Below are positions 1 through 62,765 of a stretch of 64,000 nucleotides of DNA, in pieces. The stretch's first letter is position 1. Each line of letters begins with the position of its first letter. The notes beneath the pieces were generated by a model, which saw only the letters and a list, made by a program, of their open reading frames with translations, ran no database searches and was not told the DNA's origin. Origin of the DNA: Gordius sp. MW1. Its lineage: Eukaryota; Nematomorpha; Gordioida; Gordea; Gordiidae. The stretch lies in assembly GCA_964036665.1 (NCBI GenBank), contig OZ038531.1, forward strand, positions 7,750,168 through 7,814,167. The letters run 5' to 3'. A program made the translations under genes and the position numbers.

Positions 1-40
1 TATGTTGTGGTTCTTCGTTCACGCTGGCTGGAAGTTGTCT
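1..40 (-). CDS. Array exon A cut by the window edge
   Basis: First 40 of the 48 bases of the linker exon TTSSQ, with its acceptor intact at 41-50. Shows that the gene and probably the array continue beyond position 1. Confidence 0.75.
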
Positions 41-3000
41 CTTTAAATAGTTTTAATATTTTATGAATATATCCATTTTAAGGGTAATTATTGTTTTCAA
101 CCTCTATATTATTCTACAAAATCCTTTATTCAAACAACTACGCTTAAAATGCGAAGAATAGAATGTCTGAAGATGTTTTTAATGGCTTATGCATATGAAT
201 AATAGATTTGTGATAAAATTACCGTAACATTTTTCGATGATAATTTCGATTAGGTGAAGTTGTCCTGTTATCTCGAAATCTCCCAATAAATCACTTACGA
301 ATGCATTCTTGTATTTAATTTCAACAATTTTGCCATTTTCGTTAACCTTCAGGATGACATCTAATCCAATTTGATGAACTTCGATCTAAACATCAAGGAG
401 TTACCATATATGTATGTAATAAGGTTCAGGGAAAAATGATAATGAACATATAACTGCACACCGAACTTACTATATTTATATTCTTGGGTATACACAACTT
501 TTTAACGGATTTATTTGGCTTGAAGATTATTAGGCAGACGTACAATCCTTTTCCTTTCGGATTTTTTATGGCGCATAGCTATGTAAAACATATATTTAAC
601 GTTTTGAGATAAATCTTACGTCACTCTTTATAATAATTCCATATGATGATAATTGGTAAATCCAGATGATTTGCTTTTTAATTATTTTAGAAATACTTGA
701 ACCAATAGCATTAATAACGAATATATCTTTTCCATCGAATGGATACAAGACATTATCGCCTTCTTTGATGAGGTAAACTTGTGCTGGGCTAAAATATAAT
801 GAAAATAGATTTAAATAGATTTCGGAGTAGACTTACAAAAATTGAGGAATGAACGGAATCAAAATTCGAATGATATAGTTGCCGCTCTTGATGATGTAAT
901 CGCATATTTCTAGTTTAAGAAAAAAACATGATATAGTTTGTTGGCATTGAAAAAACAATTAAAAACACATACTCTTGCGGGGAATAGTTGGACGTGTTCT
1001 AAGGAAGGTTGTACCGGTTTCTATTTTTGAATAAAATTATTACAGTAATTATTTTAAAAAATGATATAGCATGTAAGTATTTGACATAAAAGTTAAATCT
1101 GCACATAAAGGTGTAGAAACAAAGTTCACCTTCTTCCTCGGTTGTAGTACGTGGGGTTGAATGAGTTTTGTAGGTTCCTAAATAATAATTAAACAAAGTT
1201 AAAGTCGTATAATTTTGAAATAATCTAAATCATTGTAAACGACGAATAGTAGCACTACGTCCAAATCGCATTATTGAATTCATACCTTTGGTAAGAGGTG
1301 TGGTGATTGTCCTGATCGATGTTCTTCCTGCAACGGTAATAAAAGTTACAATGCTGTACAAAATACTCTTAACTGTCGAGGTAATTTACAATGTACAATA
1401 ATTTGCATAAATAGTGGAGTTTTATATTGAATAAAGGCAAAAAGTAAAATTCTACCGGTAATCTTGGGAGTTGTAGTTGTTTCAACGCGACGAGTCGAAG
1501 TTTCTTAAAATCAATTTAAAATTGTATATAATAAATAAGAAGACGCACATTGAATCTAATACACATGTTTTTAATATCTTGATAAAAGCGGTTATACAAA
1601 AATTATAACTAGAGGCTGTGTGCTTTAAATTAAACGTTATATATTGCAGTACCTTTCCTTGAGGTAAATTTATGTGGAGTGGTGCTTTCTAAAAATAAAT
1701 CAACAGTTAAGAAGTCGCATAATTAATTGAAGATATTTAAGTGAATTAGTTATTGCTTACCTTTTCGATATGTTGTGGTTCTTCGTTCACGCTGGCTGGA
1801 AGTTGTCTCTTTAAATAGTTTTAATATTTTATGAATATATCCATTTTAAGGGTAATTATTGTTTTCAACCTCTATATTATTCTACAAAATCCTTTATTCA
1901 AACAACTACGCTTAAAATGCGAAGAATAGAATGTCTGAAGATGTTTTTAATGGCTTATGCATATGAATAATAGATTTGTGATAAAATTACCGTAACATTT
2001 TTCGATGATAATTTCGATTAGGTGAAGTTGTCCTGTTATCTCGAAATCTCCCAATAAATCACTTACGAATGCATTCTTGTATTTAATTTCAACAATTTTG
2101 CCATTTTCGTTAACCTTCAGGATGACATCTAATCCAATTTGATGAACTTCGATCTAAACATCAAGGAGTTACCATATATGTATGTAATAAGGTTCAGGGA
2201 AAAATGATAATGAACATATAACTGCACACCGAACTTACTATATTTATATTCTTGGGTATACACAACTTTTTAACGGATTTATTTGGCTTGAAGATTATTA
2301 GGCAAACGTACAATCCTTTTCCTTTCGGATTTTTTATGGCGCATAGCTATGTAAAACATATATTTAACGTTTTGAGATGAATCTTACGTCACTCTTTATA
2401 ATGATTCCATATGATGATAATTGGTAAATCCAGATGATTTGCTTTTTAATTATTTTAGAAATACTTGAACCAATAGCATTAATAACGAATATATCTTTTC
2501 CATCGAATGGATACAAGACATTATCGCCTTCTTTGATAAGGTAAACTTGTGCTGGGCTAAAATATAATGAAAATAGATTTAAATAGATTTCGGAGTAGAC
2601 TTACAAAAATTGAGGAATGAACGGAATCAAAATTCGAATGATATAGTTGCCGCTCTTGATGATGTAATCGCATATTTCTAGTTTAAGAAAAAAACATGAT
2701 ATAGTTTGTTAACAATTAAAACCACATACTCTTGCGGGGAATAGTTGGACGTGTTCTAAGGAAGGTTGTACCGGTTTCTATTTTTGAATAAAATTATTAC
2801 AGTAATTATTTTAAAAAATGATATAGCATGTAAATATTTGACATAAAAGTTAAATCTGCACATAAAGGTGTAGAAACAAAGTTCACCTTCTTCCTCGGTT
2901 GTAGTACGTGGGGTTGAATGAGTTTTGTAGGTTCCTAAATAATAATTAAACAAAGTTAAAGTCGTATAATTTTGAAATAATCTAAATCATTGTAAACGAC

Positions 3001-6000
3001 GAATAGTAGCACTACGTCCAAATCGCATTATTGAATTCATACCTTTGGTAAGAGGTGTGGTGATTGTCCTGATCGATGTTCTTCCTGCAACGGTAATAAA
3101 AGTTACAATGCTGTACAAAATACTCTTAACAGTCGAGGTAATTTACAATGTACAATAATTTGCATAAATAGTGGAGTTTTATATTGAATAAAGGCAAAAA
3201 GTAAAATTCTACCGGTAATCTTGGGAGTTGTAGTTGTTTCAACGCGACGAGTCGAAGTTTCTTAAAATCAATTTAAAATTGTATATAATAAATAAGAAGA
3301 CGCACATTGAATCAAATACACATGTTTTTAATATCTTGATAAAAGCGGTTATACAAAAATTATAACTAGATCTGTGTGCTTTAAATTAAACGTTATATAT
3401 TGCAGTACCTTTCCTTGAGGTAAATTTATGTGGAGTGGTGCTTTCTAAAAATAAATCATCAGTTAAGAAGTCGCATAATTAATTGAAGATATTTAAGTGA
3501 ATTAGTTATTGCTTACCTTTTCGATATGTTGTGGTTCTTCGTTCACGCTGGCTGGAAGTTGTCTCTTTAAATAGTTTTAATATTTTATGAATATATCCAT
3601 TTTAAGGGTAATTATTGTTTTCAGCCTCTATATTATTCTACAAAATCCTTTATTCAAACAACTACGCTTAAAATGCGAAGAATAGAATGTCTGAAGATGT
3701 TTTTAATGGCTTATGCATATGAATAATAGATTTGTGATAAAATTACCGTAACATTTTTCGATGATAATTTCGATTAGGTGAAGTTGTCCTGTTATCTCGA
3801 AATCTCCCAATAAATCACTTACGAATGCATTCTTGTATTTAATTTCAACAATTTTGCCATTTTCGTTAACCTTCAGGATGACATCTAATCCAATTTGATG
3901 AACTTCGATCTAAACATCAAGGAGTTACCATATATGTATGTAATAAGGTTCAGGGAAAAATGATAATGAACATATAACTGCACACCGAACTTACTATATT
4001 TATATTCTTGGGTATACACAACTTTTTAACGGATTTATTTGGCTTGAAGATTATTAGGCAGACGTACAATCCTTTTCCTTTCGGATTTTTTATGGCGCAT
4101 AGCTATGTAAAACATATATTTAACGTTTTGAGATAAATCTTACGTCACTCTTTATAATGATTCCATATGATGATAATTGGTAAATCCAGATGATTTGCTT
4201 TTTAATTATTTTAGAAATACTTGAACCAATAGCATTAATAACGAATATATCTTTTTCATCGAATGGATACAAGACATTATCGCCTTCTTTGATGAGGTAA
4301 ACTTGTGCTGGGCTAAAATATAATGAAAATAGATTTAAATAGATTTCGGAGTAGACTTACAAAAATTGAGGAATGAACGGAATCAAAATTCGAATGATAT
4401 AGTTGCCGCTCTTGATGATGTAATCGCATATTTCTAGTTTAGGAAAAAACATGATATAGTTTGTTGGCATTGAAAAAACAATTAAAAACACATACTCTTG
4501 CGGGGAATAGTTGGACGTGTTCTAAGGAAGGTTGTACCGGTTTCTATTTTTGAATAAAATTATTACAGTAATTATTTTAAAAAATGATATAGCATGTAAG
4601 TATTTGACATAAAAGTTAAATCTGCACATAAAGGTGTAGAAACAAAGTTCACCTTCTTCCTCGGTTGTAGTACGTGGGGTTGAATGAGTTTTGTAGGTTC
4701 CTAAATAATAATTAAACAAAGTTAAAGTCGTATAATTTTGAAATAATCTAAATCATTGTAAACGACGAATAGTAGCACTACGTCCAAATCGCATTATTGA
4801 ATTCATACCTTTGGTAAGAGGTGTGGTGATTGTCCTGATCGATGTTCTTCCTGCAACGGTAATAAAAGTTACAATGCTGTACAAAATACTCTTAACAGTC
4901 GAGGTAATTTACAATGTACAATAATTTGCATAAATAGTTTGTTTTATATTGAATAAAGGCAAAAAGTAAAATTCTACCGGTAATCTTGGGAGTTGTAGTT
5001 GTTTCAACGCGACGAGTCGAAGTTTCTTAAAATCAATTTAAAATTGTATATAATAAATAAGAAGACGCACATTGAATCAAATACACATGTTTTTAATATC
5101 TTGATAAAAGCGGTTATACAAAAATTATAACTAGAGGCTGTGTGCTTTAAATTAAACGTTATATATTGCAGTACCTTTCCTTGAGGTAAATTTATGTGGA
5201 GTGGTGCTTTCTAAAAATAAATCAACAGTTAAGAAGTCGCATAATTAATTGAAGATATTTAAGTGAATTAGTTATTGCTTACCTTTTCGATATGTTGTGG
5301 TTCTTCGTTCACGCTGGCTGGAAGTTGTCTCTTTAAATAGTTTTAATATTTTATGAATATATCCATTTTAAGGGTAATTATTGTTTTCAACCTCTATATT
5401 ATTCTACAAAATCCTTTATTCAAACAACTACGCTTAAAATGCGAAGAATAGAATGTCTGAAGATGTTTTTAATGGCTTATGCATATGAATAATAGATTTG
5501 TGATAAAATTACCGTAACATTTTTCGATGATAATTTCGATTAGGTGAAGTTGTCCTGTTATCTCGAAATCTCCCAATAAATCACTTACGAATGCATTCTT
5601 GTATTTAATTTCAACAATTTTGCCATTTTCGTTAACCTTCAGGATGACATCTAATCCAATTTGATGAACTTCGATCTAAACATCAAGGAGTTACCATATA
5701 TGTATGTAATAAGGTTCAGGGAAAAATGATAATGAACATATAACTGCACACCGAACTTACTATATTTATATTCTTGGGTATACACAACTTTTTAACGGAT
5801 TTATTTGGCTTGAAGATTATTAGGCAGACGTACAATCCTTTTCCTTTCGGATTTTTTATGGCGCATAGCTATGTAAAACATATATTTAACGTTTTGAGAT
5901 AAATCTTACGTCACTCTTTATAATGATTCCATATGATGATAATTGGTAAATCCAGATGATTTGCTTTTTAATTATTTTAGAAATACTTGAACCAATAGCA

Positions 6001-51000: not shown

Positions 51001-54000
51001 ATTGTATATAATAAATAAGAAGACGCACATTGAATCTAATACACATGTTTTTAATATCTTGATAAAAGCGGTTATACAAAAATTATAACTAGAGGCTGTG
51101 TGCTTTAAATTAAACGTTATATATTGCAGTACCTTTCCTTGAGGTAAATTTATGTGGAGTGGTGCTTTCTAAAAATAAATCAACAGTTAAGAAGTCGCAT
51201 AATTAATTGAAGATATTTAAGTGAATTAGTTATTGCTTACCTTTTCGATATGTTGTGGTTCTTCGTTCACGCTGGCTGGAAGTTGTCTCTTTAAATAGTT
51301 TTAATATTTTATGAATATATCCATTTTAAGGGTAATTATTGTTTTCAACCTCTATATTATTCTACAAAATCCTTTATTCAAACAACTACGCTTAAAATGC
51401 GAAGAATAGAATGTCTGAAGATGTTTTTAATGGCTTATGCATATGAATAATAGATTTGTGATAAAATTACCGTAACATTTTTCGATGATAATTTCGATTA
51501 GGTGAAGTTGTCCTGTTATCTCGAAATCTCCCAATAAATCACTTACGAATGCATTCTTGTATTTAATTTCAACAATTTTGCCATTTTCGTTAACCTTCAG
51601 GATGACATCTAATCCAATTTGATGAACTTCGATCTAAACATCAAGGAGTTACCATATATGTATGTAATAAGGTTCAGGGAAAAATGATAATGAACATATA
51701 ACTGCACACCGAACTTACTATATTTATATTCTTGGGTATACACAACTTTTTAACGGATTTATTTGGCTTGAAGATTATTAGGCAAACGTACAATCCTTTT
51801 CCTTTCGGATTTTTTATGGCGCATAGCTATGTAAAACATATATTTAACGTTTTGAGATGAATCTTACGTCACTCTTTATAATGATTCCATATGATGATAA
51901 TTGGTAAATCCAGATGATTTGCTTTTTAATTATTTTAGAAATACTTGAACCAATAGCATTAATAACGAATATATCTTTTCCATCGAATGGATACAAGACA
52001 TTATCGCCTTCTTTGATAAGGTAAACTTGTGCTGGGCTAAAATATAATGAAAATAGATTTAAATAGATTTCGGAGTAGACTTACAAAAATTGAGGAATGA
52101 ACGGAATCAAAATTCGAATGATATAGTTGCCGCTCTTGATGATGTAATCGCATATTTCTAGTTTGATAGAAAATAACATGGGATAGTTTGTTAGAATTGA
52201 AAAAACTCTTAAAAACACATACTCTTGTGGGGAATAGTTGGACGTGTTCTAAGGTAAGTAGTACCGGTTTCTATTATTGAATAAAATTATTACAATTATT
52301 TTAAGAAACGATATAGCATGTAGCAATATTTGACATAAAGGTTAAGTCTGCACAGAAAGGTGTAGCAACTAGATTCACCTTCTTCCTCGGTTGTAGTGCG
52401 TGGGGTATAAGTTTTGTAAGTTTCTGATTAATAATTCAAAAAAATTGAAATCGTTTAATTTTCTAATAAACTATATCATTGCCAAATTTAAATTTTGAAT
52501 TATGCCTACAATCGTTGCAAAGGTCTTTAAGATTAGCGCGCTTATAATTAAAAGCATAATTTTTGAAATTTTTCATGCTTATATAATAAATAAATCAGCT
52601 CAATCAATTTACTATCATCAGGAGTTGTGGGCCTTGTTCTGTGTTTGGTTGTGCCGCTTTCTAATGTATTATTTACATCAACAGTTAAATCAATATTCTG
52701 CGATTATTAAATTGACTTAATTTGCAAGATTGAAATTTTTTTACAACAATATATATTTAAATACCGTTCTCAAACGTGGTTTCCGTCAGCATTTCTGTAG
52801 AGCCTAGATTTATTTATTTGTAAACGTTTAATTTTACCACAAACTTTACTAATTTATTTTTGTAATAACTACCTGTTATGTTACACGTATTTTCCGTCCC
52901 TTTATATAATATACACAAATGTTGAAAAGAATAAATTTTCATGAACGATTTATCAAAAATATATGCCAATACCAAAAAAATTATTTATATGCTTATTAAT
53001 AATTTTGACTAACCCTTATTTTAACTAGGTTTTGTAATGCCTTGATCAAATTTATTTTTAACCATTTTAAGAACTATTTATACAAATATTCCGCACAAAT
53101 GAATTACAAATAAAATATCTACGTTTTCCGTAACTTATGTGTCCTGCATCAATTTATTATTAAACTTTGAGCACAATTTGATTTGTACATTTTTCTATTT
53201 TTTAATTGTATTAATTTATTTGCAAGCACAAAAACTTACATCTTAAATATAAATTTTTCCATAAACCCTATCGTAAAGGATCCCAATGTAGTTCACAATT
53301 ATTTAAATGATTTTATTAGATAACTAATCGACGTATAAATTAAATAGTAATTAGGAACAGATGACAGCAAATAATGGCCGAAATTGAGCTATTATTATTA
53401 TGTCATTTCTATTTTCATCTACATTCCCTACTATATATTTTTATACCTGCCCTTATTTTGGCTAATTTTGCGTCATGGTTCATCCAATATTATAATTAAA
53501 AATCCATCGAAAAAGAAAATGGATGGATTTCGTCGGATTTATAAACAAAATCAGCTCACACTTATATTTTATCATGGATATTAATCACGTGGAATATAAA
53601 TTAGATTCATTAGATTTAAACAACTCTAAGACCCTTTGTCCCAACTGACAAAAATATATCCACTTCTTTAACAAACAATATAATTTATAAACCGTAAAAG
53701 AGGCTTATTTCTTATATTTCTAATTTAAGTCGTAGTATAATTAATAAAAGGTTGCCCAAGTGAAATTATTTGTAACAAACACTATCTGATTAAACAAAAA
53801 ATGTAAAAATTCAATCGAAATTTTGTTTTGAATTTAGGCTAAAGCAACTTTGTTGCATATCCTATTTTATAACTCTATGATTATATTGAAAACTTTTTAA
53901 GGAAATGTATGTATAGGTCAGAAATTTCTTTTTTATCTAATGGCTTCGTAATATTTAATTAATTAATTCAAATTATAAAAAATTTTGCTTCCACTCTTTT

Positions 54001-57000
54001 TTAGTTCCATCTTAAATAATCTTGCAAAAAAATTTACTGCGTCATTTTGTTAAGAAAGTATGATTGTTTAAATCTTTGGTCTATGTTTGTATTTTATGAT
54101 TTCAGTTAAGATAGTTTCATTTAAATCTTCAATATACATATGGTTTCTGTGCCGCTCCCCCCTAACACCCTTCTGGGAAAAAACTGTGAATAACCTTTTC
54201 TATTATAACTTAATGTCTTCAAACATTCATCTTCATTTATATATGTAAACATATTGTGTAAGTAAATAAAATCTGTAAAACAAACTTACCCATGCCCTCT
54301 ATTAAAATAAAACATTATAAACATATAAATATATGTCGTATGTATATATAGGAAAAAAAATACTAAAACGATATGGTTGCATGACTTATTCATATAAAAG
54401 TTTAATAAATTTGTTTTTGCAACAAAAAATAAAGCGTAGCGTTATAAATAAATTAATATTTGCTACAAAATCAATTAGGTTGCAGATATATAACATACCT
54501 GATATCTCTGTTACACCCGTTTCCTCAGTTTCTAAGCTAGTTTCTGTGATCTCAGTAATTGGCGTTAAGTCGGTACCTTCACTTGATTCAGTAATTTCAG
54601 TTAATTCAGAAGATTGGCTATATTCAGTTCCTTCGGTCAAGCCAGTACCCTCAGTCTCTTCAGTGACTCCTGTAACTTCAGTTTCAGTCTCTTCAGTAAC
54701 TCCTGTAACTTCAGTTTCAGTCTCTTCAGTGACTCCTGTAACTTCAGTGATCTCTGAACATTCATCCGTTTGCCCAGTACCCTCTTCGATCGTACTGAAT
54801 TCTAATGTTTAAATTCGTTAAAATATAGGGGACTTGTAGTGCTAGTTCGCCTCGACATTATATTAAAATTCTAAGCAAAATGCCATCATTTCCCCTGTTA
54901 TACTATAATAATATCAATCATATTTACATGTTAAAAATATCATTAACTTTATTTAAATTGCTATTTAATTTCAGAGTTGTTAAGGTGCGCGCACCGGATT
55001 TGCGGTGCGACGTGCTGGTGCGCGCACTTTTTTATAACGAAGAGAGTGCGGGTGCGCGCACCTGATTAAGTCGGTGCGGGTGCGCAATTGCGCTCCTGTT
55101 TTGAGCACATTAAGAGTTTTACAATTTATTAATTTATTCGAAATTGCATTATATCGCATATTTCACAAATTAAATTTCTACTGATTTACTATATATAACA
55201 TACATCTATGTTCCTGGTGGAGAAGATAACAAGGCGGGAAATTGGTTACTATCGATATACAATAAAAATAATCTAACCGCGATATTTCACATTATTCACT
55301 TATTTACTTTATCATACAATAAAATATTTAAATAATGATAATATATTTAATTCCGCGTTTTTTGGAATATTGTCATCTCCCGTTACTATCTCAATATTTC
55401 AAACCCTTTTAAAACCTATCTTTGCTATCGTATTTTAATCACATATAGTGACCTAATTACAATTAATTTTCATTAAAATATATTAAATTAGTTAATTAAT
55501 TTTAATTATTAATCTGTATTATTGTATTGGTTGTCATAGTACTCCTTATCCAATTTTTTACTCTTTTCTTTTCTCACTGCTTATATATAACACTTTAATA
55601 TGATAGTGAGTTATGGAAATAGAAGAATCAAGCATAAATGTTGCAAGCACATCATGCATGGAAATTTTTCCATTTCCAAAATATGCTAATATGTTTAAAC
55701 TTAAAGATAATCAGCATAATACACTTAATTTTGAGGTGCAATGTCTTTTATGCAATGCCAAATTAAAGACTTCTTCTAGATCTTGTTTTAATTTGACTAG
55801 GCATCTAAAGGTAATCTTGTTACTTATTTTTATTTAATAATTAAGTAAATAAAAAATTTAGAGAGATTTCATAATAGTACATTACAAAAGCTTACAAATG
55901 ACGATAAGAAAAAGAAAGTCTTAAATAAATCTAACCAGAATATTTTAAACTTTACTAAAGAGATATGTTGGGAAGAAGCCTTGGTGAATTATGTCATCAA
56001 CACAATTCAGCCTCTTTCAATTGTGGATAATCCATCCTTTAGAAAGCTACTAAGTGCTTTCTCAAAATCTCCTGTTGATGTCATGTGTCGACAGACATTG
56101 ACATCTAGAATCACTAGTAGGTTCAATAAGTTAATTGCTAAAATCAAAGAAGAAATGCATAGTGCTGAGTTTATTTGTACAACAGCTGACTGCTGGATTA
56201 CTGGTAGAAGGTAATGATTTATAAAAAGTCATTTTTATACTCTAATTTATTTAGAGCTTATTTAGGCTTAACAGCACACTGGATTAATCAAAGCACCTTA
56301 GAGAGAAAATCAATTGGATTGTGTCTTAAAAGGATACAAGGAAAGCAAACCTATGATGTGATTGCTAAGAACATTATTGATGTACATAAACAATTCAAAA
56401 TTCACAACAAAGTTGTTCAACCATTACTGACAATGGATCCAATTTTGTAAAAGCCTTTAAGTAATAATTTTTTCTTTAAATAATAAAGCATATGCTATAG
56501 GGTGTAAGAAGAAGAGACAATACATTCTGATGTTCAGAAACAAGATAAAGATTTAGAGTGTGGATATTGAAGATATAATAAGTAATTGTCCTGAAGAATA
56601 ATCAGAACATTTGCCAAAACATGGGCGCTGTGCTTGTTTTTGTCTTAATTTGGTAGCCAGTGTTGATATCAAGGAAGCATTTTTGAATAACAATTTTAAA
56701 AAAATATTTCGTTCAACATTTAACAAATGCCAAAATTTGTGGAGTAAGCAAAATATGTCCACTCGGTTGGCTGATATATATAATGAGAAAATTGGAATAT
56801 ATTTAATTACCCCAAATAAAACTAGGTGGAATAGTTATTATGAGGCTGTGAATTTATTAAATAAATTGCTTGATACCAAAAAATCAAATTTGTATGATCT
56901 GTTTGATGAAATAGGCTTATCTAGGTTCAAAGAAGAAGAAAGAGTATTTATTTATGAGTATTCTTTAGTAAGTTTTACATTATAAGCAGATATAATAGCT

Positions 57001-60000
57001 GTTTATAATTTACTTATCAATTTATAGGTTATGGAACCATTAGCTAAATCTTTGCGCATTTTGGAAGGAGATAAATCCGTAATTAGGATATCTTCTACCA
57101 ACAATAACAGTACTAATAAAAGGTTGTGTGATTTAGATATATGCCTACCATTAGTGAATGCAATTATACAAGGGATTGAAAGAAGGTTTTATATATATAA
57201 TAAACTTTAAATTATTATTTGTATTTAAAAAGATTCCCAAATTTATATGACGATAATGTTATTGCAGCAGCATTCTCAACCCTTTATTTAAAACAAATCT
57301 CAGTTGGTGCGATCAAGATGAAAACAAACCTATACTAAAAAGAATTATTCGATTAATTGAAAGTCAAATCACGACAGGCGTAAAAGAAAAAGAAGTCATG
57401 AACTAAAAGACTTTGATGATTTTTTCGAAATAAATAATAAAGAACATAAAACAACTTTTCAGGATTTTCACAAATCCACTGATACAACTTTGGATATATT
57501 CCAACAATTTACTTCACTCAAGAATTTGTTCATCAAATACAATACTCCTATACCTTCAAGTGCTCCTATAGAACGTATGTTCAGCAAAGCCAAGGCACTA
57601 TTAAGTGAAAGAAGGGGTAACTTGACGGATAATCACCTTTAAATGCTTTTTCTCATGAATGTGAATAAAATGCTATGTTGATTTATATTGTTATTGTATA
57701 TCGATTATTTTTATAATTATAATAAATTCATAGGTTTTTGAATTAGACAAAATAAAGGTTATGCATTGAACATTACTCTTTATTATGTTTTGTTATAGTG
57801 CAATCAAAATTTATGTGCGAATGCGCGCCGCGCACCTTAATACTGATGCGAGTGCGCGCACCTTTGTTAAAACTGGTGCGAGTGCGCGCACCGGATTTTC
57901 CTCAATGTGTGAGTGCGAGTGCGGCACCGGTTTTAAGTGCGTTTAACAACTTTGTTTAATTTAATGATATTTATTTAGATACGTATACATGGGAGTAGCC
58001 AGGAAGGGGGGCAGGCCCTTAAATGACGGAATTTTTTTTGCCACCCCCTAATTGAACCTTTATACATTTGCCACCCCCCCTAATCCAAAACCTGGCTACA
58101 CCCATGTACGTATATTACACCTAAATATCGATAAGAGAAGAGTGTAGTCAATTTAAGCAATTCGCTGGCATTTATAAGTGTTGAGAAATGTTTATGGCAT
58201 TAGGCTTTTTTTAAACTTGATTAGATATATAATTACTGCGAGAGCTGCAAGCATTTTTGTTACAATCTGAAGACGTTTAATTCATTTAACCATTAATGGT
58301 ATTAGATTCAAATTGATAAACATTTACAAAAGCTTTTTTCACTTTTTTTGGATATATGTTACGTTTTAAATGTGCAGAAATAGTTTATCATTTTTGTTGC
58401 TTTAAGTCATTTTTATAAAATATAGGTAGGCCCAAAATAGTAGATATTTTTTCCCCTCATTTCATATATCCCACATTATAACGTAAATGATTTAGAAGAG
58501 ATGATTCAAAATTATTGGTGCTAATTTTGCGATGTTTTTAACCAAAATAACGTATTGCTTTGGTGGTGCTTATTTTATTATTAACAACTTCTTATTAATG
58601 CATTATAACAAGTTATCGTTAAATAATTAAAATAGTTAGTCTTTAGCAGTTAATCTATTTTATAAATGAGCCTTAATTTATATTAGCCCATTTTTTAACT
58701 CCAGGCACCCAAAGGGTGCTCCTTAGTGTAGAATTTTTTTGTATAAAAAAATGTTATTAAATAAATTAGGACAAATTACAAATCCTGTTTCTTCTTTTAA
58801 TTATCGAAAAGTTTCAACTTCTTACTATGAAAAATTGAGCCGAATGATTGTATTTTGTATATTATTTCAATAATTAATTTTATGGGCTCGTTTTTCATTG
58901 TCCATCCTGTCCAATTAGTGATTTTTTAATAATTGCCGTGTGTTACAATAAGCGATTTTAATGGTTATGACTTATGCTTCTGTAAAAAACTTTTATTTTG
59001 ATTTCGCATTTTAACCAGCTAATGACCGCTAGTTGCCTTTAATTTTTTCGACCTCGCCCGAGCCGAAAGTCCATTTTTTTGGGGCCGACTGATTACCTTT
59101 ATAAATGAATTTATTTTGTCAACTTGTGTTGCCTTATAACGAATAATTGCGAAACTGGCTGAAAAATTCCCTGCAAATTAATGATGACCGCTGCTTACTT
59201 TTACTTTTTGTGACCCCTGCCAACCAAAACCCATTTTTATTTTTATGGCTTATTTTTTTTGATATTAAACATAAAAAATAATTTCAAATTAATTCAAATC
59301 CTATTCCGTTTTAAGACAACGTTTATCCCAAGCTTGAAAAATTTATACGTTGTATTATTAAGCATTACAAAGGTTGCAACGTTGCAAATTTTTTTTCACA
59401 GTCTAAATAATTTATTTCTGATGATTAAAAAATTTTTCAGTCACATATCTTTACTATGCAAAAATTTGTTAAAAAATGGATCTTATTGGTTTAACCTGTT
59501 GCATTTTATTTTACTACGGAGGCCAAAGCCAAACAAATTTATAAAAAATTTCGATTTTAAGATGCAAAACTTTCGCCGTTCAGCTTTAAAAAACAAAGAT
59601 CATAAGTTACAAGGTCCTGCTAACTTTTAAATATAATTGTTAATTGTCTAAAGAACAAATAATTTATTTGCCAGACAATTTAAACAAAAAAAAATTGGTT
59701 GAGCCCGAGCTATATCAAGTGATATAAAGGCACACACAAACATTAACATAAAATCAAAATTTGAGTTAATGTATAAGACTTAAAGTGGCGTGTGGCCCCG
59801 GGAATGCCCCTAATCCAGGTAGGCCCTCTCTGTTATGTTTTTATCAAGATTGGCTACCTTTATTCGTTTCTGTTCCAAAAGAAAGCACTTCAAAAAAAAA
59901 GCTGATCAGAAAAAAAGCTAATAAATCATTTTTGAATATCCCATTGAGGGTTAAGGTTCGGGGTAGTGTTTTAGGTCAGCGTTTTAGGTTAGGGTTAGGA

Positions 60001-62765
60001 TTAGATGCACATCACATTCCCTCCCCATTTGAGATTTTAAAATAAGATATAATAATTAGATTTATTAATAGGATATCTAAAAATAGTATAGATATTCAAA
60101 AATGGTATAAAAAATGGGATATTCAAAAATGATTTATTAGCTTTTTTCTGATCAGCTTTTTTTTAAACACATTTTAGGGCCTACATTTTTTATTAGCTTT
60201 TTTTCTGATCAGCTTTTTTTTTTGAAGAGCTTTCTTTTTGAATAAGAATCACTTTATTATATAACAGCCTATCTACCGCGATAATCACGTGAATAAATGA
60301 GTCAGTTTTTTAAATCTCAGGACATTAAACACTTACACGAAAATTAGTATGTTTTGTCAAAACATCGATTGTAGAATTAGAATTAATGACAATTTTTCGG
60401 AAATAGTCTCCTAGCTTAAAGTATATTAAAGATAGACTAGCGCTGGAGAAAATAAAAACATTATTATATTAATATAATGATATTGATTAACTTTTTCTAT
60501 TTTTCACATACAATTTTTGAGCAAAAAAACATTTGATAAAATCCAATACCCCTTCCCTATAACAAAAATACACGCTATTTGTCTGCTCTCTTCTATGTTA
60601 TGCTAAATTACTAATTTTGGGGGAAAAATATAGCTTTTACTTAACGATCAATCCATGCCGTATTTAAATGTGTATTTTATAATACATGAGTTTCTTTCAT
60701 AATTTTACCTACCACATTATAAATTAGACAAGTAAAACTTTTGCCACCTTAATATTATTATTAAAAATAACCTGATATCGGGGTTGAATGATGGCCCTCG
60801 CTAAATCCTTTCGTAGCTAATAACATAAAAAAAATTTATAATCTATGCAAGTCTAATTTTACTGTTTCCGTCGAAAATCACAACTTTGAGTCCTTTCTTA
60901 AATAGACAATTTTTTTTCATAACCTTGTAAATTTCTTGTAATTCGCCGTTGGACAAGAAGGGTTTGGGTGAATAAATTTCCAATTCCACATAAACGGGGT
61001 AACAATAGCCCTTGCTCATCTGCTTTCGGCAAATTAGTATGATCAACAGACCATTTTTTGCGTACAGTATTAGGGCGTCATCTAACGTAAGATTATTTTA
61101 TTGTTTTAAGCCGAGACATGACTGCAATAATTTCTATTTAAGTAAATAATAATTGTGCTATGATATCCAGCATGAGGCGAACTTACATTTATCTTCGTTG
61201 GAAATTAGATTATTCTTAAGCCAGTACGAACCATTTGTTTGCCAGATGTAGGAGGGATTGTCCTCTTTTTTCCTTTTAGTTCACAAATTGATAGTTTAAT
61301 AGATATTGACATTTATAAAATCCTTTTTTTGTTGAAAATTAATGCAATTGTATTCGATTTATTATAATATTTTGATTAAAAAGGGTTGTAACAAATAGGT
61401 ATCAGCAGAATGCGTGATTGTTGTTATTTACTTATGTACAAGTAAAATTTAATAACACTTTGATTGTTATAATAATATTTGCTTTAGAAAGTTGAAATAC
61501 TATAAACAAGTATGCGCCCGTAAATTAAAAAAAATTAGATTAGTTAAAGTGTAAATATGCAATAAAACACATAATAGTAATGTTATTCCATTTAAAACAA
61601 AAATTTAAACAAGAGATTTAAAACATTGCATAATTTGTGAAGGCAACTAATTTCTCTATAAATAAAATTATCTAAAATTCAATAAACTTCTCTATAAATA
61701 AAATTATCTAAAATTTAATAAACTTCTCCACAGATATTAAATTTTCGACAAATCAAATATATACCCGAATTTTCCTAAAAATTTGGCATTATCAAAAAAC
61801 ATAATTATATGCTTATAAATTTTTAAAGGGTGGGTATAAAATAATGTGTTACTTGAAAGAGAGGTAGTTAAATTTGAATTGAGTTTCGTTCATTTTTTCA
61901 ATTTGTAAAGTCTCATATTTCGGGGCGCATATAACTTTTTTATTTTTCCTATCTTGTTTGCATTTATTGTAAAATCCGACGCGAAACAAAATTCGATTGA
62001 TGAACTATAAAATTGGTTAAAATTATTTTTTAAATAGACCCTATTACCTCTTTCGAATTTTGGACGGACGAACTGACTATGTTTTTCCATTTACAATGTT
62101 CACCTATGAATGTAAAAATAACGATATAAAATTAGCAACATATTAGACCAAACCCGACCTGAACTATTCGATATTTAAATCTCCTACCCAGCCAAATCTT
62201 ACAATTTTTATTAGCTAAGACATAAGTTTTCTATTGTGTAAACTTAAATTAAATATATCAAGCCTCCATAAAAATACATTTAAACACTCATAAGATTCTT
62301 TTTGATAACAAACTTATAATAACTAAAAAGTGATTTCAAGATTAACGGAAGGCACTTGTCATATTACTTGGCTTACACTAAACAATTTAATTAAGATTTA
62401 ATATCAAATTTTTTTTATCAAAATTATAAGTTTCAAGGATTGGGCTTACAGCATGGTCTACCCTTGATGTTTGTGATGGAGAAAATATCGGTAGTAACCG
62501 TTGCATTCAGATCCATGTAGTCTAGATAATCATCGATATATTCGCAAAATTTCAACTTTTTAAATTTGGCTTCCCAATCGCATTTGGAACCAAGCTGATG
62601 GTCCCATTTACAAACTTTGCTTTGGTTATTGTTTCGAACATTGGCCAAAGTTACCCCTGGATCAGCTTTGTCAATATAAAAATATTATTTTTACAAAACA
62701 ATTATTGTACCTTCGCAACTCAAAAGCTTCAGGGCAATAAAAACAAGCAGTAGCTTTAAAGCCAT
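1..62765 (-). CDS. Giant secreted mucin-like repeat protein gene, split into about 300 small exons, 3' end beyond the window
   Basis: Seen: starting from the ATG at 62,765, six N-terminal exons, one Thr/Glu-rich exon, several linker exons and then 29 complete ten-exon cassettes can be chained with GT-AG introns and matching phases at every junction. No stop or frame-shifting indel was seen in any chained exon. Coding per cassette is 783 nt, so frame is kept through the array. Predicted product in the window is about 8,150 residues: signal peptide, a diverged Cys-rich domain, an acidic Thr/Glu mucin segment, then repeats of a 90-residue basic Thr-rich linker and a 171-residue domain with five Cys. 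Inferred role: secreted or extracellular-matrix glycoprotein. I do not recognise the domain family. The alternative is two genes: a short one from exons 1-6, ending at a TAG just past exon 6, and a separate array gene. The consistent phase-1 junctions favour one gene. Confidence 0.8.
223..385 (-). CDS. Array exon J: domain end IEVHQ (163 nt), reference copy
   Basis: Phase 0 in, phase 1 out; acceptor TTGATGTTTAG, donor GTAATT. Encodes 54 codons beginning IEVHQIGLDVILKVNENGKI and ending IIEKCY, with the fifth Cys. Alternating hydrophobic pattern (DVILKV, KIVEIKY) implies beta strands. Unit 6 has Asn to His at 9,165. It joins to linker exon A of the next unit as Cys-Tyr-Glu-Thr-Thr. Confidence 0.8.
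471..578 (-). CDS. Array exon I: domain LCAIK, three Cys (108 nt), reference copy
   Basis: Phase 0-0, acceptor TTTTACATAG, consensus donor GTAAGT. Encodes 36 codons with LCAIKNPKGKG, YVCLIIF and KKLCIPKN. Three of the five domain Cys are here. Only this frame is open across the exon. It can be skipped without a frame change. The region resembles exon 4 of the N-terminal domain. Confidence 0.8.
620..788 (-). CDS. Array exon H: domain PAQVYL (169 nt), reference copy
   Basis: Phase 2 in, phase 0 out; acceptor TATATTTTAG, donor GTAAGA. Encodes 56 codons beginning PAQVYLIKEGDNVLYPFDGK and ending GIIIKSD. No Cys. Contains an Ile/Lys-rich middle. Units 3 (Gly to Glu, 4,256) and 17 (Tyr to Asn, 28,913) carry amino-acid changes. 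Without the donor the frame runs to a TAA 7 codons later, but the next exon fits phase 0 exactly. Confidence 0.8.
837..909 (-). CDS. Array exon G: domain start ICDY (73 nt), reference copy
   Basis: Phase 1 in, phase 2 out; acceptor CTTAAACTAG, consensus donor GTAAGT. Encodes ICDYIIKSGNYIIRILIPF and then IPQF. Alternating hydrophobic residues suggest two beta strands around a Ser-Gly-Asn turn. First of the domain's five Cys. Unit 22 has Leu to Ser at 37,966. Confidence 0.8.
973..1020 (-). CDS. Array exon F: linker TGTTF (48 nt), reference copy
   Basis: Phase 1-1 exon, acceptor CAAAAATAG, donor GTATGT, encoding TGTTFLRTRPTIPRK. An internal CTTAG could act as a competing acceptor, but that would give a 26-nt exon that does not fit the flanking phases. 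The full 48-nt form joins to the first domain exon as Lys-Ile-Cys-Asp-Tyr. Confidence 0.75.
1130..1177 (-). CDS. Array exon E: linker TYKTHS (48 nt), reference copy
   Basis: Phase 1-1 exon, acceptor ATTATTTAG, donor GTGAAC, encoding TYKTHSTPRTTTEEE. The 65-codon open frame that recurs 29 times in the array is this exon plus intron read-through at both sides. Conservation in diverged unit 30 (three-base loss, frame kept) supports the exon. Unit 17 has Arg to His at 29,420. Confidence 0.8.
1286..1327 (-). CDS. Array exon D: linker RTSIRT (42 nt), reference copy
   Basis: Phase 1-1 exon, acceptor TTACCGTTGCAG (one of the best in the unit), donor GTATGA, encoding RTSIRTITTPLTK. Variants at unit positions 1334 and 1335 lie just upstream in the acceptor region and mark units 7-12. 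Confidence 0.8.
1456..1503 (-). CDS. Array exon C: linker TSTRRV (48 nt), reference copy
   Basis: Phase 1-1 exon, acceptor TTGATTTTAAG, donor GTAGAA, encoding TSTRRVETTTTPKIT. It has a run of four Thr before Pro, a typical O-glycosylation context. Unit 23 carries a Thr to Pro change here at 40,343. Confidence 0.8.
1653..1688 (-). CDS. Array exon B: linker STTPHK (36 nt), reference copy
   Basis: Phase 1-1 exon, acceptor TTATTTTTAG, donor GTACTG, encoding STTPHKFTSRK. It is the shortest of the six linker exons. Length is a multiple of three, so skipping it would not shift frame. Confidence 0.75.
1761..1808 (-). CDS. Array exon A: linker TTSSQ (48 nt), reference copy
   Basis: Phase 1-1 exon with acceptor ACTATTTAAAG and donor GTAAGC. 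Encodes TTSSQRERRTTTYRK, Thr-rich and strongly basic. In transcript order it follows the last domain exon of the preceding (higher-numbered) unit and opens the linker. A Gly or Glu codon is formed across each junction. The copy at the left edge of the window, 1-40, lacks its last 8 bases. Confidence 0.8.
1769..3524 (-). repeat. Unit 2 (1,756 bp)
   Basis: Lost 11 bp in the intron between exons G and F, shortening it to about 52 nt, and 1 bp in the intron between exons C and B. Carries marker bases 536A, 611G and 770A shared with units 5 and 30. Exon lengths unchanged. Confidence 0.9.
3525..5290 (-). repeat. Unit 3 (1,766 bp)
   Basis: Two single-base intronic losses (near 4,441 and 4,938). A c to t change at 4,256 replaces Gly by Glu in exon H (DGKD becomes DEKD). 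Shares an intronic variant at unit position 1557 with unit 2. Confidence 0.9.
5291..7058 (-). repeat. Unit 4 (1,768 bp)
   Basis: Consensus-like copy. No exon change noticed. Exons at unit 1 coordinates plus 5,290. Confidence 0.9.
7059..8826 (-). repeat. Unit 5 (1,768 bp)
   Basis: Carries the 536A, 611G, 770A marker set of units 2 and 30, plus a synonymous change (Phe) near 7,794. Intronic change near 8,760. Confidence 0.9.
8827..10590 (-). repeat. Unit 6 (1,764 bp)
   Basis: Lost 4 bp in the intron between exons J and A (near 9,032). Asn to His in exon J at 9,165. Has 1374T and 1405T in an intron, as in units 7 and 10. Confidence 0.9.
10591..12358 (-). repeat. Unit 7 (1,768 bp), first of a three-unit block
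   Basis: Variant set 1335A, 1374T, 1405T, 1599G, all intronic. The same set occurs only in unit 10, three units away. Confidence 0.9.
12359..14126 (-). repeat. Unit 8 (1,768 bp), second of a three-unit block
   Basis: Variant set 1335A, 1374A, 1405G, 1599G, matching unit 11. Confidence 0.9.
14127..15894 (-). repeat. Unit 9 (1,768 bp), third of a three-unit block
   Basis: Variant 1334A (acceptor-proximal base of the intron before exon D) with 1374A, 1405G and 1599A, matching unit 12. Confidence 0.9.
15895..17662 (-). repeat. Unit 10 (1,768 bp), copy of unit 7
   Basis: Same four variants as unit 7. Additionally has 216T (16,110), shared only with unit 28 as far as I saw. Confidence 0.9.
17663..19430 (-). 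repeat. Unit 11 (1,768 bp), copy of unit 8
   Basis: Same variants as unit 8. No exon change noticed. Exons at unit 1 coordinates plus 17,662. Confidence 0.9.
19431..21198 (-). repeat. Unit 12 (1,768 bp), copy of unit 9
   Basis: Carries 1334A like unit 9. Closes the second three-unit block. Confidence 0.9.
21199..28270 (-). repeat. Units 13-16 (four copies of 1,768 bp)
   Basis: Starts at 21,199, 22,967, 24,735 and 26,503. I noticed no difference among these four consecutive copies, exons or introns, the most uniform run in the array. Confidence 0.85.
28271..30038 (-). repeat. Unit 17 (1,768 bp)
   Basis: Two amino-acid changes: Tyr to Asn in exon H (28,913) and Arg to His in exon E (29,420). 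Intronic changes near 28,677 and 30,000. The most protein-altering unit I saw. Confidence 0.9.
30039..31802 (-). repeat. Unit 18 (1,764 bp)
   Basis: Lost 4 bp in the intron between exons C and B (near 31,617). Several intronic substitutions (near 30,171, 30,838, 31,154, 31,415, 31,590). Exons appear unchanged. Confidence 0.9.
31803..33569 (-). repeat. Unit 19 (1,767 bp)
   Basis: Lost 1 bp in the intron between exons C and B (near 33,398), with intronic substitutions near 31,893, 33,322, 33,431 and 33,514. Confidence 0.9.
33570..37105 (-). repeat. Units 20 and 21 (1,768 bp each)
   Basis: Starts at 33,570 and 35,338. Unit 20 is consensus-like. Unit 21 has one intronic change near 36,893. Confidence 0.9.
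37106..38872 (-). repeat. Unit 22 (1,767 bp)
   Basis: Leu to Ser in exon G (37,966) and a synonymous Ser change (37,989). Lost 1 bp from an A run in the intron between exons G and F. Confidence 0.9.
38873..42408 (-). repeat. Units 23 and 24 (1,768 bp each)
   Basis: Starts at 38,873 and 40,641. Unit 23 has 1374T and a Thr to Pro change in exon C (40,343), extending the TTTTP run to TTTPP. Unit 24 has a synonymous Glu change in exon E (41,777). Confidence 0.9.
42409..49480 (-). repeat. Units 25-28, sharing variant 1424G
   Basis: Starts at 42,409, 44,177, 45,945 and 47,713. All four adjacent units have g instead of a at unit position 1424 (intron). Single changes: unit 25 near 43,507 (intron); unit 26 at 45,004 and about 45,758 (introns); unit 27 near 46,693 (synonymous Val in exon H); unit 28 at 47,928 (216T, shared with unit 10). 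Confidence 0.9.
49481..51248 (-). repeat. Unit 29 (1,768 bp)
   Basis: Consensus-like, lacks 1424G. Exons at unit 1 coordinates plus 49,480. Its linker exon A is at 49,473-49,520, and the exon A preceding it in the transcript is at 51,241-51,288. Confidence 0.9.
51471..52157 (-). CDS. Unit 30 domain exons (first repeated domain in transcript order)
   Basis: Four exons at 52,085-52,157, 51,868-52,036, 51,719-51,826 and 51,471-51,633 encode the 171-residue domain, with the same lengths and phases as the other units. They are nearly identical to the array copies. Unit 30 carries the same three marker bases as units 2 and 5 (unit positions 536A, 611G, 770A; the two exonic ones are synonymous). 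This is the 5'-most domain of the array and is followed by the linker exon at 51,241-51,288. Confidence 0.8.
52223..52270 (-). CDS. Unit 30 linker exon TGTT (diverged, 48 nt)
   Basis: Encodes TGTTYLRTRPTIPHK, phase 1-1, with acceptor CAATAATAG and donor GTATGT. It differs from the array exon by Phe to Tyr and Arg to His, while keeping length and frame. It lies just outside the region of near-perfect unit identity. Confidence 0.75.
52379..52423 (-). CDS. Unit 30 linker exon TYKT (diverged, 45 nt)
   Basis: Counterpart of the 48-nt TYKT exon of the array, encoding TYKTYTPRTTTEEE, phase 1-1. It has lost exactly three bases relative to the array copies, so frame is kept, and carries several substitutions. 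Acceptor ATTAATCAG and donor GTGAAT are intact. Conserved coding beside strongly changed intron sequence supports this as a true exon. Confidence 0.75.
52613..52660 (-). CDS. Linker exon with RTRPTTP (48 nt)
   Basis: This 48-nt phase 1-1 exon has acceptor ATACATTAG and donor GTAAAT. It encodes SGTTKHRTRPTTPDD. The GTT..RTRPT.P pattern is shared with the TGTTFLRTRPTIPRK exon present in every array unit, so the two are diverged duplicates of one ancestral linker exon. The overlapping plus-strand open frame at 52,502-52,720 is a shadow. Confidence 0.65.
52765..52794 (-). CDS. Candidate 30-nt micro-exon (LTETTFEN)
   Basis: Phase 1-1 segment with acceptor GGCTCTACAG and donor GTATTT, encoding MLTETTFEN. 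Its LTETT resembles the Thr/Glu style of the mucin exon. Fits the reading frame between the mucin exon and the next linker exon. Confidence 0.45.
52873..52899 (-). CDS. Candidate 27-nt micro-exon (TENTCNIT)
   Basis: Phase 1-1 segment with acceptor ATATAAAG and donor GTAGTT, encoding TENTCNIT between split glycine codons. It is Thr-rich, contains an N-glycosylation site (NIT), and shares the core ACGGAAA(A/C)(T/C)ACG with the candidate at 52,765-52,794. The acceptor is weak. The call rests on phase symmetry and on this likely duplication. Confidence 0.35.
52900..54498 (-). other. Intronic AT-rich stretch upstream of the linker exons
   Basis: About 1.6 kb of very AT-rich sequence. I find no recognisable gene or mobile element. 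A 21-nt phase-compatible candidate micro-exon at 53,123-53,143 and a 9-nt one at 54,290-54,298 can be drawn from splice signals but have little other support. The plus-strand open frame at 53,384-53,584 has low-complexity composition and no family signal. Confidence 0.4.
54499..54801 (-). CDS. Thr/Glu-rich acidic mucin exon
   Basis: This 303-nt exon is phase 1 at both ends; the acceptor is TTTAAACATTAG and the donor GTATGT. It encodes 101 codons dominated by Thr, Glu, Val, Ser and Gly, with the repeat TETEVTGVTEE and looser units such as ELTEITESSEG. There is a single Cys (DECSE). Such Thr-dense sequence is a typical substrate for O-glycosylation, giving an extended acidic stalk. It contrasts with the Arg/Lys-rich linkers of the array. 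The plus strand of the same DNA also reads openly (SVTPVTSVSVSS-like), which is a mirror effect of the repeat. Junction phase supports placement between exon 6 and the linker exons. Confidence 0.7.
54651..54749 (-). repeat. Three tandem 33-bp repeats in the Thr/Glu exon
   Basis: Three adjacent copies (54,651-54,683, 54,684-54,716, 54,717-54,749) begin tcagtctcttcagt(g/a)act and differ at one or two positions. On the minus strand each encodes 11 residues (TETEVTGVTEE). The period is a multiple of three, so copy-number change would alter stalk length without breaking frame. Confidence 0.9.
54964..54971. repeat. Left 8-bp target-site duplication of the hAT element
   Basis: TTTAATTT, identical to 57,955-57,962 on the other side. 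Confidence 0.9.
54980..55105. repeat. Left subterminal GC-rich repeats of the hAT element
   Basis: Four or five copies of a GGTGCG(C/G)GTGCGC-type motif, some palindromic (GGTGCGCGCACC), in a background of otherwise very AT-rich DNA. A matching cluster is at 57,813-57,935. Confidence 0.8.
55613..57681 (+). pseudogene. hAT transposase with BED zinc finger, frameshifted
   Basis: In order: exon 1 (55,613-55,810) carries a BED-type zinc finger with CLLC and, across an intron that could end at 55,863, RHLK-RFHN. Exon 2, from about 55,864, holds FTKEICWEEALVNYVI and the first catalytic Asp in TADCWITGRR. Then come LTAHWI, the second Asp in TDNGSNFVKAFK (56,42x-56,457, reached only by a one-base frame change), RCACFCLNLVAS (the usual His is replaced by Phe), TRWNSYYEAV, and the C-terminal dimerisation region SSAPIERMFSKAKALLSERR (near 57,557-57,616). 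Breaks: the frameshift before TDNGSN, stops near 56,560-56,600 and after KEVMN at about 57,406, and an early stop after TDNHL at about 57,642. About 690 codons could be expected of an intact gene. Clearly a dead copy of a known family. Confidence 0.9.
57813..57935. repeat. Right subterminal GC-rich repeats of the hAT element
   Basis: Repeats such as GATGCGAGTGCGCGCACC and GGTGCGAGTGCGCGCACC, in inverse arrangement to the left cluster. Confidence 0.8.
57955..57962. repeat. Right 8-bp target-site duplication of the hAT element
   Basis: TTTAATTT, directly after the terminal TTAACAACTTTG. Confidence 0.9.
57988..58106. mobile_element. MITE with CATGGG.GTAGCCAGG ends, 119 bp, copy 1
   Basis: Terminal inverted repeats CATGGGAGTAGCCAGG (left) and the complement CCTGGCTACACCCATG (right), followed by runs of G/C. 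Flanked by an 8-bp direct repeat TACGTATA at 57,980-57,987 and 58,107-58,114. It has no coding capacity. An 8-bp duplication suits hAT-like mobilisation, but the superfamily is unproven. It lies only 25 bp from the end of the hAT element. Confidence 0.85.
59872..60246. mobile_element. Foldback or MITE-like element with long inverted arms
   Basis: The left arm (59,892-59,944) is the near-perfect reverse complement of 60,114-60,164: both contain GCTGATCAG flanked by A/T runs, then AATAAATCATTTTTGAATAT. A second right-hand arm (60,187-60,246) pairs with an extended left arm (about 59,872-59,930), so the right arm is duplicated. The loop holds a telomere-like stretch (ttaggttagggttaggatta, about 59,984-60,003) and gatattcaaaaatg twice. 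No coding capacity; an overlapping open frame at 59,785-60,045 crosses arm and loop and is not a gene. Confidence 0.65.
60863..61081 (-). CDS. Exon 6: end of the N-terminal domain
   Basis: This 219-nt exon is phase 1 at both ends, with acceptor TTACGTTAG and donor GTAAAA. It encodes 72 codons starting DALILYAKNGLLIILICRKQ. It resembles DVILKVNENGKIVEIKYKN in the last domain exon of each array unit: alternating hydrophobics, then Lys-Asn-Gly or Asn-Gly-Lys. It contains three Cys (ICRK, YCYP, NCLF). Read without splicing, it meets a TAG five codons past the donor. Exons 1-6 total 784 nt, or 261 codons plus one base, leaving phase 1 as required by the next exon. Confidence 0.65.
61187..61272 (-). 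CDS. Exon 5: N-terminal domain, continued
   Basis: This 86-nt exon has phase 2 in and phase 1 out, with acceptor AACTAAAAG and a consensus GTAAGT donor. It encodes KKEDNPSYIWQTNGSYWLKN and then NLISNEDK. It has an N-glycosylation site (NGS) and aromatic residues at regular spacing, which suggests a beta-rich fold. The other two frames contain stops (TAA), and only this frame joins exons 4 and 6. Confidence 0.65.
61652..61723. repeat. Two tandem 36-bp repeats in the intron between exons 4 and 5
   Basis: Two copies starting ttctctataaataaaattat at 61,652 and 61,688, differing at one or two bases, with a short partial third copy after 61,723. The surrounding 580-bp intron (61,273-61,852) shows no other feature. 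Confidence 0.8.
61853..62004 (-). CDS. Exon 4: N-terminal domain, region similar to the array LCAIK exon
   Basis: This 152-nt exon enters in phase 0 after a 43-nt intron and leaves in phase 2 at a GTAACA donor. It encodes 50 complete codons including YNKCKQDRKNKKVICAPKY. That stretch resembles YVCLIIFKPNKSVKKLCIPK in every array unit: Cys, a Lys-rich spacer of 10-13 residues, then Cys-x-Pro-Lys. It also contains an N-glycosylation site (NET). The similarity is seen by eye and is the main reason for treating exons 2-6 as a diverged copy of the repeated domain. Confidence 0.65.
62048..62103 (-). CDS. Exon 3: N-terminal Cys-rich domain, second part
   Basis: This 56-nt exon enters in phase 1 and leaves in phase 0. 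The acceptor is TTCATAG and the donor GTAATA. It encodes CEHCKWKNIVSSSVQNSKE, where the first Cys is completed across the junction. The CKW motif repeats that seen in exon 2. An overlapping open frame here (start near 62,090, end near 61,890) reads through the next intron and is judged a shadow. Confidence 0.6.
62450..62665 (-). CDS. Exon 2: N-terminal Cys-rich domain, first part
   Basis: This 216-nt exon is phase 1 at both ends, with acceptor TTGACAAAG and donor GTAAGC. It begins ADPGVTLANV and holds cysteines in the contexts VCKWD, KCDWE, FCEYIDDY and RPC. FCEYIDDY resembles ICDYIIKSG, which opens each repeated domain in the array. It contains an N-glycosylation site (NAT). If not spliced at the GTAAGC the frame runs only five more codons (CKPNP then stop). 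The downstream exon matches the phase and continues a Cys-rich chain, so splicing is preferred. Confidence 0.7.
62711..62765 (-). CDS. Exon 1: start codon and signal peptide
   Basis: The ATG at 62,765-62,763 has A at -3 and G at +4, a good Kozak context. The 18 codons read MALKLLLVFIALKLLSCE, a short basic start followed by a hydrophobic core of about 12 residues, which is a classical secretory signal peptide. The exon ends in phase 1 at a GTACAA donor. Cleavage is likely near the Cys/Glu at the exon end or just inside exon 2. This is the only signal-peptide-like start on the minus strand upstream of the array, so it is taken as the N terminus of the giant protein. Confidence 0.75.

Follow-up and report, generated by a model that had tools for sequence, protein, structure and literature searches.

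A satellite-like tandem array of ten-exon units as the very probable body of one giant split gene

A minus-strand array of 40 near-identical tandem copies, found in one assembly of 211.8 Mb in 12 contigs, is very probably the body of a single coding gene, predicted to encode one chain of 1.3 MDa. The window, the whole stretch of 64,000 nucleotides that was analysed (C5:7750168-7814167), contains 30 of the 40 copies. A sequence-only reading of the same DNA had proposed one giant split gene, and this proposal is borne out by a predicted chain of exons that stays open from an ATG through 40 units to a stop, as well as by constraint on the exons themselves. According to the proposed mechanism, ten-exon blocks would be spliced in frame, with a signal-peptide-like start at the 5' end and a stop at the 3' end, and a single pre-mRNA would span the entire gene. 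The product, which is probably secreted judging from its predicted start, would consist of Cys-containing, putatively beta-rich domains of 171 residues alternating with Thr-rich, basic linkers of 90 residues.

The unit of 1,768 bp given by the earlier reading was recovered as the measured tandem period. Its count of 29 units in the window agrees with the 29 exact copies of the array anchor, but the anchor total is 30. The array runs past window base 1; a search of the 180 kb below the window with the array anchor revealed ten further copies, and the lower end of the array lies near window coordinate -17,400. All ten exons that had been proposed for each unit have GT-AG borders, and their lengths do sum to 783 nt, with compatible phases and no in-frame stops (Table 1). 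The predicted unit protein is 261 residues long, divided into the 90-residue linker and the 171-residue domain. Thr accounts for 31 of the 90 linker residues and Thr, Ser and Pro together for 49%, and the linker is strongly basic (pI 11.1; 20 Lys and Arg versus 9 acidic residues); a Thr/Ser/Pro-rich segment, which is a feature of gel-forming mucins, thus recurs with every unit. The domain is 46% Ile, Val, Leu, Phe or Tyr and includes five Cys. The 39 full units encode nine distinct versions of the protein, each at most one residue away from the commonest. The longest open reading frame of 65 codons that had been reported matches the longest start-to-stop frame in window positions 1-7000, and the longest stop-to-stop frame of the whole array on the minus strand is 93 codons.

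Table 1. Predicted features of the array and of the 5' part of the gene, in window coordinates
Feature	Coordinates	Strand	Details
In-window array	1..52158	-	30/40 copies; rest extends ~17.4 kb below base 1
Unit linker exon 1	1761..1808	-	48 nt, phase 1-1
Unit linker exon 2	1653..1688	-	36 nt, phase 1-1
Unit linker exon 3	1456..1503	-	48 nt, phase 1-1
Unit linker exon 4	1286..1327	-	42 nt, phase 1-1
Unit linker exon 5	1130..1177	-	48 nt, phase 1-1
Unit linker exon 6	973..1020	-	48 nt, phase 1-1
Unit domain exon 1	837..909	-	73 nt, phase 1-2
Unit domain exon 2	620..788	-	169 nt, phase 2-0
Unit domain exon 3	471..578	-	108 nt, phase 0-0
Unit domain exon 4	223..385	-	163 nt, phase 0-1
Peptides predicted for array product			KIVEIKYK, EGDNVLYPFDGK
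Exon 1: start codon and signal-peptide-like MALKLLLVFIALKLLSCE	62711..62765	-	donor GTACAA, phase 1; by eye
Exon 2: N-terminal Cys-containing segment	62450..62665	-	exon-chain search; donor uncertain by few bases
N-terminal unique domain	60863..62103	-	four exons, phases 1-0, 0-2, 2-1, 1-1; exon-chain search
N-terminal domain exons	62103-62048, 62004-61853, 61272-61187, 61081-60863	-	
Short linker exon, weak donor	60772..60816	-	exon-chain search
Thr/Glu-rich exon	54499..54801	-	three near-identical 33-bp (11-codon) repeats
Four diverged linker exons	52223..52803	-	all phase 1-1; borders checked by script
Diverged linker exons singly	52803-52765, 52660-52613, 52423-52379, 52270-52223	-	

Variation was counted in 39 aligned copies of the 40; unit 40 was excluded because its linker tail is diverged. 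Splice dinucleotides are intact in all 39 full copies. Variable columns are less frequent in exons than in introns (16/783 versus 41/985; Fisher p 0.014), and all nine distinct indels fall outside exons; as three of the nine tag one shared haplotype, they would count as 6 to 8 independent events, for which the probability that exons are spared altogether is 0.03 to 0.009. Neutral evolution was simulated with the observed mutation spectrum in 5,000 runs. Eight amino-acid changes were observed versus a neutral expectation of 17.0 (P 0.005), and the same eight stand against 19.4 when stop and splice changes are included (P 0.0006), while silent changes occur at the neutral rate (8 observed, 7.8 expected). 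Furthermore, the predicted frame of the joined unit exons is free of stops, whereas the two alternative frames contain 13 and 15; read in these, the same 16 exon changes would be silent once and four times. The selection signal is based on these 16 exon substitutions, and the constraint tests, all of them on small samples, make a good but not overwhelming case for coding function.

These measurements bear directly on the explanation that the array is a non-coding satellite amplified from a piece of a once-coding gene, with the exons as fossils and the flanks as a smaller or dead gene. The mean pairwise divergence of the copies is 0.95%, counting the diverged tail of the last one, and at about 99% identity their intact frames could be partly inherited; moreover, a 131-bp piece of the unit (C2:5978331-5978461), 98% identical and running from exon through intron to exon, lies on a different chromosome, inside a tandem repeat rich in G. 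In the diverged flank copies, too, exon and intron identities differ little (91.4 versus 87.6%, 95.9 versus 94.3% and 88.1 versus 85.2%), and with exons leading by no more than 2 to 4 points, substitution rates in the flanks say little. However, a non-coding satellite should show no constraint in any frame, and the neutral simulation revealed constraint: the changes that followed amplification have avoided damage to amino acids, splice sites and frame. In addition, the flank copies alter exon length by 3 nt only (diverged flank linkers have exon gaps of 3, 3 and 3 nt, and intron gaps that are multiples of 3 in 4 of 16 cases), and the frame of the array is continuous with the unique sequence at both ends. 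That the present array is a non-coding satellite is judged very improbable.

The exons outside the array were predicted with a homology-free exon-chain search. Run on a doubled copy of the consensus unit, it scored 147.5 on the minus strand versus 15.9 on the plus strand, and dinucleotide shuffles of the consensus unit (n=100) gave a mean of 11.3 (sd 8.0, maximum 33.8). One intron of the unit is 41 nt long, so a minimum intron of 45 nt left exons undetected; the search was rerun at 38, once with a slight bonus for joins in phase 1 and then without it. Raw scores against a fixed background were useless for comparison across regions (controls reached 521 versus 113 for the C-terminal end), and controls shuffled from each region itself were used instead. 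With self-composition scoring, the C-terminal chain scored 73.3 (30 shuffles: mean 5.0, sd 4.0, maximum 14.2), the N-terminal chain 34.2 (30 shuffles: mean 2.7, sd 3.1, maximum 11.0) and two array units 62.9 (30 shuffles: mean 4.8, maximum 16.4), and the opposite strands scored 5.2, 0.0 and 4.5 for the C-terminal end, N-terminal end and array units respectively. Six of twelve neighbouring control stretches of 5.5 kb entered the same comparison, and all six beat their own 15 shuffles on at least one strand (highest score 59.8), an effect that other genes and mobile elements presumably account for. Because these controls also beat their shuffles, the search score alone is no proof of a gene; the search identifies sequence as coding-like, and it is the frame joins, the phase order and the constraint that tie the pieces together.

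The joined chain comprises 438 exons and 34,491 nt, with a single stop located at its end, and the gene model spans 89.3 kb (C5:7723616-7812932). The predicted product has 11,496 residues, a mass of 1.31 MDa and a pI of 9.6. A product of about 8,150 residues had been estimated before; for the window this estimate is close to the 8,177 residues of the model (437 + 29 x 261 + 171, by arithmetic), but it falls short of the whole product, because the gene model runs 26.5 kb past the window. At the 5' end, the start codon placed at 62,765 is an ATG followed by a signal-peptide-like stretch, as judged by eye. The four diverged linkers upstream of the array connect to unit 1 in phase 1. On the 3' side, the array is followed by diverged linkers (among them TTSSLRERITTTYRK and STSTPTKFTSRK) and Thr-rich mini-exons that lead to a first C-terminal domain. 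Nine mini-exons of phase 1-1 come next, without the Thr richness of the preceding ones; the chain closes with a last domain and a TGA stop codon, and an AATAAA lies 221 nt past the stop.

The linkers of the 40th copy are diverged, and the array contributes 39 x 10 + 4 = 394 exons. This number is unaffected by the ends of the gene, where the count is approximate, making 438 an approximate total. Several features account for this. Three exons (175, 64 and 16 nt) in a palindromic stretch below the array were removed before the final count; a linker-like stretch of 48 nt (ENSTGLISTITALKIS, -19063 to -19110) is open and in phase, yet it was not picked by the search; a linker remnant near -18271 no longer has an acceptor; and the result depends on the search settings. 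A long hairpin was seen by eye in a 250-nt stretch below the array, inside what is predicted to be a long intron toward the 3' end of the gene.

Other elements were noted in and around the 5' part of the gene. The predicted intron between 60.8 and 54.8 kb holds an insertion-like segment of about 3 kb (window 54935-57972) with imperfect inverted ends and GC-rich minisatellites, which may be an inserted, hAT-like DNA transposon; the two of its open frames that were compared with Pfam gave no transposase match. Small elements bounded by inverted copies of GGGCGTAGCCAGG occur at 63643-63804 and 57991-58103; this motif has four matches at one mismatch or fewer versus none expected, and similar stretches were seen by eye elsewhere in the genome. 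Upstream of the gene, remains of a LINE-like reverse transcriptase were recognised by eye in a 3,600-nt stretch.

The three terminal domains were compared with one another and with the unit domain. Their exon lengths are 56/152/86/219 in the N-terminal domain, 56/134/110/219 in the first C-terminal domain and 35/134/116/216 in the last, and with the phase-1 bonus all three display one phase order (1-0, 0-2, 2-1, 1-1). Without the bonus, the N-terminal and last C-terminal domains keep this order, whereas the first C-terminal domain becomes one exon of 375 nt and one mini-exon is lost. In its four-exon reading, the first C-terminal domain aligns over its full length with the N-terminal domain (score 115 versus 34 with 500 shuffles; z 15.4); the likeness of the last C-terminal domain to the other two is weak (P 0.014 and 0.046). 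A whole-genome search with the one-exon reading of the first C-terminal domain found only itself and, through residues 50-116, the last exon of the N-terminal domain (E 2.2e-6), and outside the gene the three terminal queries gave only weak matches in the whole genome, on C3 (E 0.4) and C7 (E 0.02). Pairwise alignments of the unit domain with the terminal domains were at the level of shuffles (P 0.60-0.85), and a profile of the terminal domains ranked the unit domain below nearly all of 500 shuffles. The unit domain resembles the terminal domains in having four exons and a similar number of codons (171), but its phase order differs; it may be a very diverged relative of the terminal domains or a second family.

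Variation along the array was examined for traces of its history. Shared variants in 37 columns form an ordered mosaic, with one block shared by units 28, 31, 32 and 37 and another by units 1, 26, 29, 32, 33 and 38. Units 28, 31, 32 and 37, toward the 3' end, differ in the largest number of columns (17 to 21), which is due mostly to one shared deletion. The recurrence of variant blocks in units that are not adjacent points to unequal exchange between sister copies, by which the array most likely grows and shrinks. It was also considered that the copy number is an artefact of assembly and that the real coding array is shorter or longer: units 10 and 15-17 match the consensus at every position, and identical runs are hard for any assembler. 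Many other units nevertheless carry private or shared markers within the ordered mosaic and both ends of the array pass into unique sequence, and we consider such an artefact quite unlikely.

Gain or loss of a whole unit adds or removes 261 codons, so the frame would be kept, and each linker exon could be skipped without a frameshift because all six are in phase 1-1. The length of the protein could thus be adjustable in evolution and possibly by splicing too. The same skippable exons would suit a reading in which the array is coding and gives rise to several shorter products through internal promoters, poly(A) sites or extensive exon skipping. We regard that reading as unlikely, given that the modelled chain has its one stop at the end and that no unit closes a reading frame.

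Relatives of the predicted protein were sought by sequence and by fold. Among 5.8 billion proteins, neither the unit nor the C-terminal chain has a homologue at E <= 10, and the aligned three terminal domains have none at E <= 1. No Pfam family passes its cut-off for the unit (best DUF2283, E 0.063) or for the N-terminal 276 and C-terminal 509 residues; vWD, C8, TIL, cystine-knot and SEA domains are among the Pfam domains not found in the unit or the ends. Searches of the PDB by sequence gave two chance-level matches for the unit (E 1.5 and 2) and none for the terminal-domain profile. The 56-residue exon of the unit is predicted to fold into five strands (pLDDT 78.2), and of its 680 fold matches in the PDB at E <= 10 none reaches 0.001, the best being to Ragulator-type chains (E 0.12); a 72-residue exon of the N-terminal domain is predicted to form three strands and a helix (pLDDT 66.5). 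Both folds were predicted without an alignment and for this reason are read as beta-rich only. A search of the genome with the unit gave 162 matches, and among the matches listed all are in the C5 array. Among the papers listed on giant repeat proteins and on hairworm secreted proteins (10 of 26 for the latter), no title or abstract opening describes this gene.

From the signal-peptide-like start, the Thr-rich basic linkers, the Cys-containing domains and the megadalton length of the predicted product, an extracellular structural role has roughly an even chance of being correct. The Thr-rich linkers would carry O-glycans, and the five Cys per unit, an odd number, may help to cross-link chains; the protein could be a structural, mucin-like polymer of the cuticle, the egg-string matrix or the cyst wall. 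Gordiids are described as laying egg strings and as having larvae that encyst (PMC6892959), so matrices that need such a protein exist.

The host was assessed from its mitochondrial contig. On contig C12 (14.8 kb), cox1 can be read with the invertebrate mitochondrial code, and within 4.3 kb around it both sides carry perfect inverted repeats with arms of 108, 95, 53 and 47 nt. Nematomorpha are reported to have long perfect inverted repeats within their mitochondrial protein genes, those in nad1, nad5 and atp6 being common to the four species that were studied (PMC6649704), and mitochondrial inverted repeats of this kind are described as exclusive to the phylum (PMC10380579). The repeats on C12 therefore make a horsehair worm the likely host. 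Nuclear copies resembling cox1 are many, on C1, C3, C4, C5 and C8, the one at C8:2829490-2830827 being nearly full-length and four on C4, two per strand, scoring alike. In addition, (CCCTAA)n was seen at four of the five contig starts that were read. For this reason, and because a search for the RR cuticle family found no match in the genome, an insect host was rejected, although the cuticle search was weak, as its control also gave no match. A bryozoan host, considered on account of 11 chromosomes, was given up in view of the mitochondrial inverted repeats.

If the predicted gene is real, ordinary annotation would discard one of the largest animal proteins, because a repeat masker sees a satellite and an ORF scan sees nothing. 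The gene would then provide a candidate matrix or glue protein for a phylum with few molecular tools, as well as a natural test of how a spliceosome avoids skipping when it meets over 400 exons that are small and near-identical. It would also be a case in which protein length is set by the molecular drive of satellite arrays.

The closest parallels are found among genes with internal repeats and giant modular proteins. In LPA, which encodes apolipoprotein(a), kringle IV-2 is a near-identical multi-exon block repeated in tandem within one gene and of symmetric phase. The array similarly places a tandem multi-exon block in one open chain in which changes of copy number would keep the frame; however, LPA has kringle domains and two exons per block, whereas here there are ten exons, 40 copies and no Pfam domain above the cut-off. 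Mucins of the MUC16 type are giant chains in which folded domains alternate with Ser/Thr-rich linkers and repeats are built from several small exons. The predicted chain shares this domain-plus-linker plan and the assembly of repeat units from small exons, but it differs in having no SEA domain, in its short, very basic linkers of six mini-exons, and in a domain without a known relative. Like satellite DNA, the array is uniform, runs head to tail and bears signs of unequal exchange and homogenisation, and it is set apart by constraint at splice sites and in the reading frame. Titin is an intracellular muscle spring of Ig and Fn3 domains. Its gene, which is reported to have 363 exons (PMC6850032), is likewise extremely exon-rich and encodes a giant modular protein; in contrast to titin, the product described here is predicted to be secreted, no Ig or Fn3 domain was found in it, and its gene has about 438 predicted exons. 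It may well be the most exon-rich gene yet described, a coding satellite in which unequal exchange would have built the body of a horsehair-worm-specific extracellular polymer of 1.3 MDa with orphan domain families. Intragenic multi-exon repeats are known already; the scale and the domains are new, and the gene stands out by its homogeneity, its number of exons and the orphan state of its domains.
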